Source of the DNA: Bathymodiolus heckerae thiotrophic gill symbiont
GTDB lineage: Bacteria; Pseudomonadota; Gammaproteobacteria; PS1; Pseudothioglobaceae
Direction: 5' to 3'
DNA length: 32,418 nucleotides
Assembly: GCF_900128515.1 (NCBI RefSeq)
Contig: NZ_FQTP01000011.1
Location: 1-32,418 of the forward strand
Both the position numbers and the translations under genes were made by a program. Positions 5,316 through 22,768 of the stretch are shown one piece after another (position 1 is the first letter of the stretch; each line of letters starts with the position of its first letter). The notes under the pieces are model-generated. The model was given only the letters and a program-made list of their open reading frames with translations. It was not told where the DNA came from and ran no database searches.

Positions 5316-7055
5316 TTAGAAGCTATGTGTCACTCCTATATTAAAAGTACGACCTAGTTGATTATAGTCTTTTGCAACTTCATATTTTTTATCTAAAGCG
5401 TTATTTAGAGTTCCAGTAACCTTCCATGCATTGTTGTAATCATAGCTAGTGGCAAAATTAACAAGTGTATATCCATTTAATTTATCAGATCCACTATTTG
5501 TATCCCAAGCCCACGATTTACTAATTATATTTACTCTATTACTATATTTTCCTATTTGCTTCCTTACAGTAATTCCAATTGAATGTTTTGGCCTTCTTCC
5601 TGTTTGATGTGAGGTGCCATTTTTGATCGAACTGTTATAAGAGTACTCAGCACTTACATCTAAATTTAATATATCAGCCATAACCGTAAGATCAGCACCT
5701 TTTATGTCATATCTTCCATCATTAGTGTAATAATGCGATCCCCATGGGCCGTTATATTTAAAAAAACTATCAACTTTATTTTTATAAGCTTTGATAGATG
5801 CCGTACCCCAGTTGCTCTTTTTTTCAATACCCAGTTCAATATTTTTTGATTGCTCTGGCTCTAATTCAGTTCTGTTTTGCGCAATATTGGCATCAGTTTT
5901 TGAAATTGATGCGAGTTTGGTTGCCTTGCCATATGAGCCAGAAATCCTCCAATTTGAGCTTAAGTTCCTGGCTAAGCCTAGATTGTATGTAAGGTGATTG
6001 CCAAATCTGTCATGGTCTATATTTCTAAATCCGAATACAATATCATTGCCATAGACTACTCGTTGCCATTGTGCAAAAATATCTGTATTTGAGTTATGGG
6101 TTGTTCCGGAGGCTTTCTCATCTTTTTGAAAAGACATTCCACCATTTAACAATCCATTGTCAACATTAAATTCACTTGCAAAAGTAAGATCGCTCTCCTT
6201 GTAGTCAGAGCCGTAATAAGATTGTTTATTTTGAGCATAAGTTAATTTAGATCGCAATCCATTAGCAAGAATATGATTGATTTCTACATTGTATTGATTT
6301 AAATCATTATTATTTGTACCATCATCATATTGAACATCTGCACTTGAGTCTAGAATACCAAGCCTAACATTTGTATTTTTAGAAAAATTTTTACCGAAAT
6401 TTATGCCAAATGATCTCCTATCAGTAGAGTCTTTATCTGTACTGCCTGTTTTTTTAGCATCAATGCCATCAGTATGATAATCACTAACGGTGAAATTTAT
6501 ATAATTACCATCTTTCTGTAGACTGGATGAGTAGCTTATTTTTTTACTATTATGAGATCCATAAGAAATATTAATTGAGCTATGTTCTCCATCTTTTGAT
6601 TCTCTGTTAGTAAATACATGTACTACGCCACCAATAGCTCCAGAACCATACAAAGAAGAATACGGCCCTTTGATTATTTCAACTCTTTCAATTTGATCAA
6701 ACGGAATAATCTCTAAATGAGGCTGTCCGTACCAACTAACTTTAATGCCATCAACAAGTACAATTGTATGTCTAGCATCATTACCACGAATTCGTATAGC
6801 TGCAGTACTACCTTGCCCCGCCTCAAGGTTGGCTGAAGGGATAGTTGCAAGTAATTCTAGAAAAGTTCTTGCACCGCTTTGTTCAATTTCTTCTTTGCTT
6901 ACAACAATCTTGGATGCAATAGAGCCGATAACAGGATTAGTTGTCCTGTATTCTGAGTTTAAATAAATAGGAATAGGGCCTAATACTGCATTGGTTGCTG
7001 TAGAAAAAGTTAGTGCTGAAATGCTAGTGACTAAAGAGAGTTGTTTGATATTCAT
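5316..7055 (-). CDS. btuB: TonB-dependent outer-membrane cobalamin receptor (BtuB-like)
   Basis: Outer-membrane receptor that imports corrinoids using TonB energy. The 579-residue protein has a signal peptide (about 1-23, ending TATNA), a plug domain to about residue 150 with the VVSKEEIEQSGARTFLELL, IRGNDARHTIVLVDGIKV and GPYSSLYGSGAIGGVVHV signatures, and then a barrel of alternating amphipathic strands ending in the terminal phenylalanine typical of outer-membrane proteins (GVTHSF). The TonB box is not the usual sequence; GPIPIYLN just after the signal peptide is my best candidate. B12 as substrate is inferred from the upstream cobalamin riboswitch and the downstream btuM and cobO. The start ATG is preceded by ACGGAG. 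Confidence 0.92.
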   Translation of the reverse strand: MNIKQLSLVTSISALTFSTATNAVLGPIPIYLNSEYRTTNPVIGSIASKIVVSKEEIEQSGARTFLELLATIPSANLEAGQGSTAAIRIRGNDARHTIVLVDGIKVSWYGQPHLEIIPFDQIERVEIIKGPYSSLYGSGAIGGVVHVFTNRESKDGEHSSINISYGSHNSKKISYSSSLQKDGNYINFTVSDYHTDGIDAKKTGSTDKDSTDRRSFGINFGKNFSKNTNVRLGILDSSADVQYDDGTNNNDLNQYNVEINHILANGLRSKLTYAQNKQSYYGSDYKESDLTFASEFNVDNGLLNGGMSFQKDEKASGTTHNSNTDIFAQWQRVVYGNDIVFGFRNIDHDRFGNHLTYNLGLARNLSSNWRISGSYGKATKLASISKTDANIAQNRTELEPEQSKNIELGIEKKSNWGTASIKAYKNKVDSFFKYNGPWGSHYYTNDGRYDIKGADLTVMADILNLDVSAEYSYNSSIKNGTSHQTGRRPKHSIGITVRKQIGKYSNRVNIISKSWAWDTNSGSDKLNGYTLVNFATSYDYNNAWKVTGTLNNALDKKYEVAKDYNQLGRTFNIGVTHSF

Positions 7056-7059
7056 GATT

Positions 7060-7220
7060 GCTCCGTTAAATTATTAACGAGCGAGAGTAGACATTGCGCA
7101 GTGATGCGTTAATCTAACTCACCACCCATCGTAGTTGTTAATTTGTTGTTTAAATGTGTATCGGACTTTACCGTTGCGAGGGCAGTGTTAGAATTTAACT
7201 AACTTCCAGTGATTTAAACT
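7060..7220 (-). ncRNA. Cobalamin riboswitch, compact (Cbl-II-like), upstream of btuB
   Basis: On the minus strand, an 8-bp closing helix (7212-7219 pairing with 7148-7155) encloses a core with ACTGGAAG, a hairpin GUUAG/CUAAC with loop UUAAAUU, then CTGCCCTCGCAACGGTAA followed directly by AGTCCGATAC. These match the conserved cobalamin core and B12 box, but the long peripheral arm (P7-P11) between them in E. coli btuB is missing, as in the short class-II aptamers from marine bacteria. Downstream, GGUGGUG/CAUCACU forms another hairpin whose loop (AGUUAGAUUAACG) could kiss the core loop through UUAA pairing. A final hairpin at 7060-7082 pairs the btuB ribosome site GGAGC with GCUC, which suggests control of translation initiation. 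Pairings were drawn by eye. Confidence 0.85.
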
Positions 7221-12776: not shown

Positions 12777-13103
12777 TTAGTAACCACCTTTACGTCTAGT
12801 CTCTGGAAGTCCAGCAACTTTACCCGCTTGCTTAGCAGGACCTTTAGGGAATAATGCGTACAATTCTTTTGTACCTAATTTACCATCCCAGTCAGCTTTC
12901 AAGCCTTTTACCATGTTACGTTCGTTAGGCTGATTAGCGTTGTTGTTAATGTATTCATTGCGCAAGAAGTTGATCAACTTAAAGCTGTCGTCAGTTAATG
13001 CAACGCCTTCTTCTGCTGCAATTTCTTGAGCAATATCCTCGTTCCAATCCGTTAAGTTTACTAAGTAACCGTGACCATCTCTTTCTAAATCTGCTAATGC
13101 CAT
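12777..13103 (-). CDS. DsrC/TusE-family protein lacking both C-terminal cysteines (RspA-like)
   Basis: 108-residue protein of the DsrC/TusE/DsvC fold: the WNEDIAQEIAAEEGVALTD region, the helix FKLINFLRNEY and the C-terminal LYALFPKGPAKQAGKVAGLP are all family signatures. True DsrC carries sulfur on a penultimate cysteine with a second cysteine about ten residues earlier, in KQAC. Here the latter is glycine (G94) and the tail is ETRRKGGY, with no cysteine anywhere in the protein. It therefore cannot carry sulfur and belongs with the cysteine-less DsrC homologues proposed to be regulatory (RspA). A strong GGAGGA ribosome site seven bases before ATG suggests high expression. It stands as a single gene, divergent from lepB. 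Confidence 0.88.
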   Translation of the reverse strand: MALADLERDGHGYLVNLTDWNEDIAQEIAAEEGVALTDDSFKLINFLRNEYINNNANQPNERNMVKGLKADWDGKLGTKELYALFPKGPAKQAGKVAGLPETRRKGGY

Positions 13104-20288: not shown

Positions 20289-21320
20289 CTATTTCCAAAG
20301 ATCTACTGTAATACCTTGTTCGCGTAGCTTGTCTGATTTGTCCTCTAGGTAGCGCTGGAAATTTGGCTGGGTTTTATAAGCACCTGTTAAGGCATACGTC
20401 ATAATTCCGTGCGTATGGTATGCTTTGAAAAAGGCATCACGTCTAATAATCTCTTCACCGGTTTTGTCAAAAAATACAATGGCAGGTTTGTAAGTAAGAT
20501 TAAGCTTCTCATACCAATCTTTGGCGGTGGTGCGTTTGCCAGCAGGGGTGATAAGTTTTTCATCAGACAATGCATTAAAGCGTACAACTTGCATTTTCTT
20601 TAGATAATTTTGAGTCTCTTTCAGTGGCATTAATTGTTGATAGAAATCATTACAGGTTTGGCAATTTGGCTCTTCAAAAAATACTGCCAACACTTTTTGT
20701 GCTGGAATGGTTTCGCTCCGACTAAGCATATGCGGCCCAGCATCGAAAATAGCATGTGCATTAAGTGTGCCAGTTTTGTCTTTCTTTAAGTTATTAATAT
20801 AATTCGCGTAAGATTGATTAAGGTAGGATTTATTAGCAATATAATCAAGTGTGGCGTGCATTTTATCAATAGATTGATAGCCATTAAGCCTAAGTAGTGT
20901 CTCGCCTTTAGAGTTTAAAAAAACAAGTGTAGGAGTGAATTGAATTTTCATTTTTGCTGAAAATTCTTTTTCGGTGAAATCACTACCTTGCCAATCTGTT
21001 AGTTCACGATCCCCCCACATATTGGTTTCAATGACATCAAAATTGCTTTGTAATTTAGCCACTAAATCTTTATCGTGGAAGTTGTCCTGAACCAGCTTGG
21101 CACAATAAGGGCAGCCATCTTGATGGAAGTAAATCATTACATGCCTGCCTTCGTCAGCAGCCTCTTCTAAGTCTTCTGAAAAGTCCATGAAGGTTGCTTT
21201 AAACCAGTTGGGTAATTCATCGACAATTTTTCCGCCTAAGAATTCACCTTGCTTGACGTGTTCATGAGCAAGTGTATTGATTGAAAATAATAGTGCAATA
21301 GTTAGTAGTATTGCGTGCAT
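20289..21320 (-). CDS. Periplasmic tandem-thioredoxin protein
   Basis: 343-residue exported protein: a signal peptide (about 1-18, ending TLA/HEH), then two thioredoxin-like domains. Domain 1 (about 42-165) has CPYC (C70/C73) and a cis-proline in FTPTLVF (P130). Domain 2 (about 205-315) has CQTC (C220/C223) in FFEEPNCQTC and YKPAIVFFD. This resembles SoxW/DsbD-gamma-type reductases of sulfur oxidisers, but the double-domain layout is uncommon and the substrate is unknown. It lies 72 bases downstream of the Cas6-like gene on the same strand, with a GGGGAGAG ribosome site before its ATG. Confidence 0.8.
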   Translation of the reverse strand: MHAILLTIALLFSINTLAHEHVKQGEFLGGKIVDELPNWFKATFMDFSEDLEEAADEGRHVMIYFHQDGCPYCAKLVQDNFHDKDLVAKLQSNFDVIETNMWGDRELTDWQGSDFTEKEFSAKMKIQFTPTLVFLNSKGETLLRLNGYQSIDKMHATLDYIANKSYLNQSYANYINNLKKDKTGTLNAHAIFDAGPHMLSRSETIPAQKVLAVFFEEPNCQTCNDFYQQLMPLKETQNYLKKMQVVRFNALSDEKLITPAGKRTTAKDWYEKLNLTYKPAIVFFDKTGEEIIRRDAFFKAYHTHGIMTYALTGAYKTQPNFQRYLEDKSDKLREQGITVDLWK

Positions 21321-21392: not shown

Positions 21393-22061
21393 CTAATTAT
21401 CAATAGATTCAATTCCCTTTTGCGGTACAAATAATCCGCAGCCTAATAAGCGATGATCACCCAACCCTTTTTCTTGCAATAGCACTGATTCATTTTTTTT
21501 AAGGTCGGCCACCATTAGTGAACGAGTATGGATAGTGCCGGATTCAGTCTTAATATTACTCTCAAGACCTGCCATCATTTTTTTGACTTGAATGCCAAGG
21601 TTAGATAGTTGTTTAAAGCAGAGTTTTAAAAAATCCTCTTCACTCATACTATGTTCGCAAGCGACTTGCTTTGCAAATAAAACTGGCAAATCGCTTAATA
21701 ATTTTGAGTTAATGAGTTTAACTACTTTTATTTTATACTCACCTAAGTCGAGTATTTTTCCAGCCAAATTTTCAGCATCTTTCAGGTGTTCATGCGTGAT
21801 ACGTAGAATCAGTTTCGAGCGCTTTGAAGGGTAGTAAAACCCACCTTCCTTGCTTTGCTCCCAGCCATTGCCATCAGCCACACCAACATTATGAATGCCA
21901 GCGTTAATTTCTTCTAACCAAGGTAGATGTTTGAGCAGGGCTTGAGCCAGTAAAAAGCTATGGTCCATCGGAAGAATTTTCGATTGGATTTTAAAGCTAA
22001 CCTCTTGAATAGTTTCAGGAAGCGTAAAATGTTCTTGTTTAGTGTCTTCTTGCCAAAACAT
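21393..22061 (-). CDS. Orphan Cas6/Cmx6-family RAMP protein
   Basis: 222-residue protein with the pattern of the type I-MYXAN Cas6 (Cmx6) family. Features seen: LPMDHSFLLAQAL (residues 30-42, with H34), the SKLILRI strand followed by AGKILDLGEYKIKV (about 82-113), GIQVKK (about 156-161), HTRSLMVADL (178-187), and the C-terminal glycine-rich loop GLGDHRLLGCGLFVP (199-213) that marks Cas6 RAMPs. Cas6 proteins bind and cut CRISPR repeat RNA. There is no CRISPR array and no other cas gene in this window. The gene is divergent from rnc with a 38-base gap and may share a transcript with the tandem-thioredoxin gene. The RNA target, if any, is unknown. Confidence 0.75.
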   Translation of the reverse strand: MFWQEDTKQEHFTLPETIQEVSFKIQSKILPMDHSFLLAQALLKHLPWLEEINAGIHNVGVADGNGWEQSKEGGFYYPSKRSKLILRITHEHLKDAENLAGKILDLGEYKIKVVKLINSKLLSDLPVLFAKQVACEHSMSEEDFLKLCFKQLSNLGIQVKKMMAGLESNIKTESGTIHTRSLMVADLKKNESVLLQEKGLGDHRLLGCGLFVPQKGIESIDN

Positions 22062-22099
22062 ACAAAAATACGAATTTAATTATTATTGCGTCATTATAG

Positions 22100-22768
22100 A
22101 TGGAAAAATTACAACAAAAACTCAACTATCAATTTAAAGACACGTCTTTGCTTAAGCTTGCATTGACGCATCGTAGTGTTGGTAGAAAAAACAATGAACG
22201 TCTTGAGTTTTTAGGTGATAGTATTCTAGGTTTGGTAATTTCTAGAGAGTTATATAAGCGATTTACTCAAGTTGAAGAGGGTAAATTATCACGCTTGCGT
22301 TCACGTTTAGTTAGAGGTCAGACATTAGCTCAATTTGGACTTGCTTTGCAATTATCAGATGTGCTTATCTTGGGGTCTGGAGAGTTAAAAAGTGGCGGTT
22401 ATCGCCGTGAATCAATCCAGGCAGATGCAGTAGAGGCCATCTTTGGTGCGATCTTGTTGGATTCTGATTTTGAAACAATCAGCATTATTATTTTGGATTT
22501 ATTTAAAGATCTTTTGGACAATATTGATCCGAATGATTCGCTTAAAGATCCAAAAACATTGCTTCAAGAATATTTGCAAAAGCGTAACAGTACATTGCCA
22601 AAATATGAATTAATTAAAACAGTAGGCAAGGATCATAATGCCATTTTCACGGTTAATTGTTTGCTAGAAGATCAAAAAATGCAAGTAGATCAAGATGCAA
22701 AAAGTATTAAAAGAGCTGAGCAATCTTGCGCGCAGGCGTTGTTAGACAAGCTACAGGAGAGAAAATAA
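22100..22768 (+). CDS. rnc: Ribonuclease III
   Basis: Double-strand-specific endoribonuclease that processes rRNA precursors and structured mRNAs. 222 residues. The signature NERLEFLGDSILGLVI carries catalytic acidic residues, and ADAVEAIFGAILLD completes the active site. A C-terminal double-stranded RNA-binding domain runs from DPKTLLQEYLQKR. First gene of rnc-era-(DUF457)-recO-pdxJ-acpS. Its stop overlaps the era ATG by one base (TAATG). Confidence 0.96.
   Translation: MEKLQQKLNYQFKDTSLLKLALTHRSVGRKNNERLEFLGDSILGLVISRELYKRFTQVEEGKLSRLRSRLVRGQTLAQFGLALQLSDVLILGSGELKSGGYRRESIQADAVEAIFGAILLDSDFETISIIILDLFKDLLDNIDPNDSLKDPKTLLQEYLQKRNSTLPKYELIKTVGKDHNAIFTVNCLLEDQKMQVDQDAKSIKRAEQSCAQALLDKLQERK

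Follow-up and report, generated by a model that had tools for sequence, protein, structure and literature searches.

Comparative genomics ties a Cas6/Cmx6-family gene of a Bathymodiolus heckerae thiotrophic gill symbiont, almost certainly, to reverse-Dsr (rDsr) sulfur oxidation. It has probably taken on a new function in the energy metabolism of sulfur, most likely at the RNA level. Its fold and family are known; a CRISPR-independent, metabolism-linked subfamily appears to be undescribed. Among the open-access papers searched for Cas6 together with dsrAB or Thioglobus, for orphan or standalone Cas6 and for RspA with DsrC, none describes the link.

The gene is located at positions 21393-22061 (-) of the window, the whole analysed stretch of 32,418 nucleotides. 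As the first-pass annotation of this DNA had stated, it is an intact open reading frame; it starts with ATG, encodes 222 amino acids and occurs as a single copy in the genome (99.9% complete). The proposed membership of its product in the Cas6/Cmx6 family is beyond doubt. In profile searches, the protein scored 159.5 bits against Pfam PF09559 (cut-off 26.7; full domain), 106.5 bits against NCBIfam TIGR02807 cas6_cmx6 (cut-off 98.85) and 199 bits against the PADLOC Cas6 model, and Cas6 profiles were the only families above threshold, with no non-Cas6 competitor. An AlphaFold2 model (mean pLDDT 87.7) gave Cas6 chains as top structure matches; the predicted fold was closest to 8fcj_B, the Cas6 of a type I-B CAST, at a Z score of 23.7 and an rmsd of 2.5 Å over 197 residues. 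Orthologues and co-occurrence with dsrA, described below, identify the gene further as dsr-linked.

Neither Cas1 nor DevR/Cas7 was found in the symbiont's own genome or in a complete genome of the same genus. This genome-wide cas search comprised these two families. A scan of the window for short direct repeats of the CRISPR type returned none, in agreement with the earlier statement that the 32 kb contain no CRISPR array; as judged from Cas1 and DevR/Cas7, the genome also lacks a CRISPR system of the adaptation or Cmx type. Across 370 Gammaproteobacteria genomes, drawn evenly and treated as independent in the statistics, Cas1 and the cas6-like gene were not significantly associated (p = 0.09), and 68 of the 127 carriers have no Cas1. 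Among Cas1-negative genomes the link to dsrA was unchanged (64 with both genes, 4 with the cas6-like gene only, 2 with dsrA only and 151 with neither). Between close species, dN/dS of the gene is 0.06-0.12, which corresponds to strong purifying selection. This selection and the presence of the gene in about one third of the sampled Gammaproteobacteria, regardless of Cas1, bear out the suggestion of a retained function other than CRISPR defence.

The 127 carriers among the 370 genomes fall into 56 families (counted by hand from the tool's family codes), and the gene is mostly full length and, with one exception, present once per carrier. Genome G010 has two copies (C58 and C120); the second is most like genus g6 and likely reflects bin contamination (4%). 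When dsrA (TIGR02064), a marker of rDsr sulfur oxidation, was searched in the same 370 genomes, 122 had both genes, 5 only the cas6-like gene, 3 only dsrA and 240 neither (odds ratio 1952, p = 2e-87). The pattern recurs within families (f2, f33, f51, f119, f94 and f1, read by hand), where dsrA-positive members have the cas6-like gene and dsrA-negative members do not, a few incomplete f1 genomes excepted. Loci were fetched for the exceptions, and all eight (8/8) lie at contig ends on the dsr side. In the five genomes with only the cas6-like gene the contig stops where dsrA is expected, with TauD, c15 or rspA still adjoining the gene in most; in the three with only dsrA, the latter is close to the contig end, on the side expected for cas6. 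Gaps in the assemblies are the best reading of these eight cases. When genomes were drawn from the whole phylum, all four dsrA-positive genomes of the same class carried the cas6-like gene, and none of the 32 dsrA-positive genomes of other classes gave a match; it is therefore a companion specific to gammaproteobacterial (including beta) rDsr. Carriage on phages was also considered and ruled out, as the viral contigs and phage records searched contained no relative.

Outside Thioglobaceae, the usual gene order is dsrC<dsrH<dsrF<dsrE<dsrB<dsrA, followed in the divergent direction by TauD-like > (c15) > cas6-like > DsrC-like (rspA). Of the 88 loci from outside Thioglobaceae that span 5 kb or more, 73 have dsrA or dsrB within 6 kb of the gene; some of these loci overlap, so that this is not a genome count. 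Three divergent genomes, taken for beta lineages from their protein sequences, have dsrA followed divergently by cas6-like > DsrC-like (rspA) > c14 > TauD-like. The cas6-like and DsrC-like genes form 108 adjacent pairs (overlapping loci included), the DsrC-like gene being directly downstream at a median gap of 94 nt. The data do not support the designation of the surroundings as a housekeeping locus: in lineages other than Thioglobaceae the gene is found at the dsr locus, and it is present where dsrA is.

Other genes recur in these regions. The TauD-like Fe(II)/2-oxoglutarate dioxygenase between dsrA and the cas6-like gene is conserved divergently from dsrA (L057-L092); it also occurs in other classes, in four genomes (L208-L211) that have dsrA but no cas6-like gene. 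The uncharacterised proteins c12, c14, c15 and c16 (about 225, 190, 236 and 109 aa) recur near the dsr locus in the same set of loci; c12 looks like a PKHD-type hydroxylase by eye, and a Pfam scan of c14, c15 and c16 gave no match.

Within the window, the flanks are rnc-era and thyA-yjdM, as originally described. The divergent neighbour rnc (RNase III; 22100-22768 (+), PF14622/PF00035) holds this position only in Thioglobaceae. The spacer common to both genes (22062-22099) is a divergent promoter region with two mirrored -10 boxes in relatives (TTTATAAT...ATTATAAA), which rules out its inverted repeats as an RNA element. Judged from gene context, the cas6-like gene was moved to its site beside rnc in Thioglobaceae alone, and the linkage to RNase III, previously regarded as suggestive only, was dismissed as a functional clue. 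Downstream of the cas6-like gene and in the same direction lies a gene for an apparently exported double-thioredoxin protein (20289-21320 (-); PF13098, 118 bits), an adjacency confined to the family. As a separate feature, the window contains an AdoCbl-II (cobalamin) riboswitch at 7147-7220 (-), upstream of the gene at 5316-7055.

All 12 genomes of the genus carry an orthologue, as do 28 of the 36 genomes of the family, whose members are Thioglobus, Bathymodiolus symbionts, Ruthia and Vesicomyosocius. The dsr locus is broken up in this family, since the cas6-like gene lies by rnc; in the source genome the DsrC-like gene is 8.3 kb off and dsrA is on another contig. Because the cas6-like gene and dsr lie apart here, Thioglobaceae test function rather than hitchhiking. 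Among members at least 94.5% complete, 19 had both the cas6-like gene and dsrA, none had only one of the two and 4 had neither (p = 1e-4). For genomes at least 90% complete, the corresponding numbers (both/cas6-like only/dsrA only/neither) were 21/0/1/5, and for all 36 they were 26/2/3/5. The gene was thus lost jointly with dsr within the family, and the 1.0-1.2-Mb Vesicomyosocius and Ruthia symbionts retain it.

The first-pass annotation had overlooked that the window also encodes a DsrC-like protein (12777-13103 (-); PF04358, 102.6 bits), whose gene usually adjoins the cas6-like gene and dsrAB in other Gammaproteobacteria. The protein is of the RspA type, lacks either C-terminal cysteine and ends in GLPETRRKGGY. 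The DsrC-like proteins encoded next to cas6-like genes have KGGY at the C-terminus in nearly all cases and no C-terminal cysteine; this cysteine-less operon partner is here called RspA-type. The DsrC-like gene is absent from the two dsr-negative family members tested, G013 and G019, which also lack the cas6-like gene. In DsrC itself the penultimate C-terminal cysteine is strictly conserved, and DsrC/TusE relatives act in tRNA thiolation in other bacteria (PMC3397948).

Both sequence features on which the original family assignment was based, the glycine-rich loop and the LPMDH segment, are present and near-invariant among orthologues. The loop, GLGDHRLLGCGLFVP, is a RAMP signature and comprises residues 199-213 (21423-21467 (-), derived from the gene coordinates). 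G199, G207 and G209 are invariant: each is present in 141 or more of the 142 orthologues and in every one of the six plasmid-borne Cmx6 homologues from cyanobacteria used for comparison, five of which sit in cas operons; G201 is near-invariant. His34, within LPMDH (codon 21960-21962 (-), positioned in the same way), is shared by 141 of the 142 orthologues and by each of the six cyanobacterial homologues. Three histidines had been proposed for the active site, and only this one stands up: at position 57, 22 orthologues have F, Q, L or R instead, all six cyanobacterial proteins also differ there, and H178 falls in a non-conserved alignment column. This pattern of conservation makes H34 the probable catalytic histidine.

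A tree splits the cas6-like subfamily from the cyanobacterial Cmx6 proteins (SH-aLRT 99; the root is set by a small outgroup). W3, N65-G66-W67, E141, K161 and K215 are nearly constant in the subfamily and, except for the shared G66, differ in cyanobacterial Cmx6; R81, R87, K161, R180 and K215 hardly ever vary within it. Its members are acidic (median pI 5.9, net charge -5), whereas the six cyanobacterial proteins are basic (pI 9.35, charge +5.6). Because of this difference the RNA-binding surface may have changed, and the acidity is the main argument against reading the protein as a plain RNase.

A candidate RNA target was found upstream of dsrA in Thioglobaceae, where the leader has the same layout in 22 of 22 loci: a -10 box GTATAAT, CGTTCAC (with small variations), a hairpin, TTTATTAAATATA and the ribosome-binding site. 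In the stem, 86% of the cells are paired, and 8 of the 9 pairs show changes on both sides. The covariation score is 0.531 compared with 0.254 for shuffled alignments, none of 500 shuffles scored as high, and the value is well above slid controls; RNAalifold recovers the same stem. One locus, L293, was misplaced by the aligner, yet has its own stem at the same leader position. In other Gammaproteobacteria, the region from -90 to -15 of the dsrA leader shows a weak excess of structure over its counterparts from other dsrA-positive classes (mean z -0.62 vs +0.23, p = 0.002), a class comparison confounded by phylogeny, and these leaders do not exceed the adjoining upstream stretch in structure. 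No instance of the same element was demonstrated in Gammaproteobacteria beyond Thioglobaceae, and the window contains no copy. A match to the element in viral contigs lay inside an open reading frame, without dsr genes, and was attributed to chance.

The spacer between dsrA and dsrB contains a perfect stem of at least 8 bp in 41 of 80 cas6-positive loci (about 1 expected) and in 2 of 27 loci of dsrA-positive genomes of other classes without a cas6-like match. This intercistronic hairpin was ruled out as a universal target, being absent from three genomes (G002, G004 and G006) that keep the cas6-like gene. Its sequence is not conserved, it mostly lacks a T-run, and it comes and goes between close species (an example is L190, 10632-10661). 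Known RNA families were likewise ruled out, as an Rfam search of the dsr loci returned only a tRNA, in 8 loci. Independently, a palindrome, TATCCCCTAAGGGATA, is conserved upstream of the dsrA promoter in Thioglobaceae (L190, L283-L299) and appears operator-like; the window has no good copy of it.

We propose that an offshoot of Cas6/Cmx6, independent of CRISPR, may have become a fixed accessory of rDsr in Gammaproteobacteria, including beta lineages. Its product would most likely be an RNA-binding protein or endoribonuclease acting after transcription on sulfur-oxidation mRNAs, and the cysteine-less, RspA-type operon partner would work with it. The best candidate site, in Thioglobaceae, would be the dsrA 5' leader hairpin just downstream of the promoter, which, flanked by single-stranded CGTTCAC and TTTATTAAATATA, resembles a lone Cas6-type repeat. 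RNA binding, cleavage, the leader as target and cooperation with the RspA-type protein are all inferred, and our confidence differs between them. That the protein handles RNA is somewhat probable; that it cleaves RNA falls slightly short of an even chance, and that dsr mRNA is what it targets, with the Thioglobaceae leader as candidate, is a tentative suggestion. The explanation as a whole, an rDsr accessory acting post-transcriptionally with an RspA-type partner, we put forward at just under evenly balanced confidence. Its most specific form seems unlikely in full: a Cas6-derived endoribonuclease, freed from CRISPR, that would cleave or bind the lone repeat-like dsrA leader hairpin and, with the cysteine-less DsrC-like protein as a sensor, control sulfur oxidation post-transcriptionally across gammaproteobacterial sulfur oxidisers. 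Against the explanation as a whole stand the acidity of the subfamily and its invariants W3, N65-G66-W67, E141 and K161, which are not those of cyanobacterial Cmx6. Moreover, a clear leader hairpin is confined to Thioglobaceae, and a hairpin in the dsrA leader could simply stabilise the mRNA.

These same invariants, absent from the CRISPR relatives, would fit a Cas6 fold recruited as a non-catalytic part of rDsr that binds the RspA-type protein, DsrAB or a sulfur carrier and serves assembly or regulation without RNA. The acidity of the protein, the DsrC-like protein as direct operon neighbour and the linkage to an enzyme system instead of an RNA gene point the same way. We regard such a role as a serious alternative, though rather unlikely; against it, His34 and the glycine-rich loop, RNA-handling features in Cas6, are almost always kept, as are R81, R87, K161, R180 and K215. 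The retained His34 and loop would also suit an endoribonuclease for some other cellular RNA (a tRNA, an sRNA or the mRNA of a different sulfur gene) that only cells oxidising sulfur require, and the tRNA thiolation by DsrC/TusE relatives in other bacteria (PMC3397948) agrees with this. It is improbable given that no conserved RNA gene adjoins and that, in the dsr loci, Rfam found nothing but the tRNA (8 loci).

Since most lineages have the gene physically linked to dsrAB, it could also be a passenger, hitchhiking with the dsr cluster through vertical and horizontal inheritance. This is very improbable: the gene is unlinked in Thioglobaceae, yet kept or lost together with dsr, it is under strong purifying selection, and it persists in 1.0-Mb endosymbionts. 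Least credible, to a degree that we almost discount it, is the view that the protein processes crRNA for a CRISPR system encoded elsewhere in this genome, or is the decaying remnant of such a system. The NCBI and PADLOC models do label it Cas6/Cmx6, but its own genome and the complete same-genus genome have no Cas1 or DevR/Cas7 (the two families sought genome-wide), more than half of the carriers (68/127) have no Cas1, with which the gene is not associated, and dN/dS is 0.06-0.12.

The label 'CRISPR-associated protein Cas6', attached to the copies in many genomes, leads CRISPR surveys astray and conceals part of a major pathway of sulfur oxidation at hydrothermal vents, in oxygen minimum zones and in animal symbionts. 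If action on RNA proves true, a Cas ribonuclease would have been put to use in metabolic regulation, and the control of the dsr genes, so far poorly understood, would become testable; the candidate target RNA is short enough for in vitro assays.

Compared with known systems, the protein resembles the Cas6/Cmx6 proteins of types I-MYXAN and I-B (TIGR02807, PF09559; PDB 8fcj) in its above-cut-off profile score, in conserving both the glycine-rich loop and His34, and in its fold (Z 23.7), and it shares its general fold with Cas6e, the crRNA endoribonuclease that acts on the repeat hairpin. It differs from the former as a separate clade (SH-aLRT 99) that is acidic instead of basic, has no CRISPR partners in the genome and tracks the dsr genes in location and distribution; unlike a type I-MYXAN CRISPR-Cas system, its own genome is devoid of Cas1 and DevR/Cas7. 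Its operon partner shares PF04358 membership with the DsrC family but, unlike the DsrC sulfur carrier, the product of 12777-13103 lacks both C-terminal cysteines, the penultimate of which is strictly conserved in DsrC (PMC3397948). The crRNA endoribonucleases Cas6e and Cas6f bind a repeat hairpin, and the candidate target proposed here is likewise a hairpin with conserved single-stranded flanks; in contrast to a CRISPR repeat, it would occur once, as a cis element within the leader of the dsrA mRNA.
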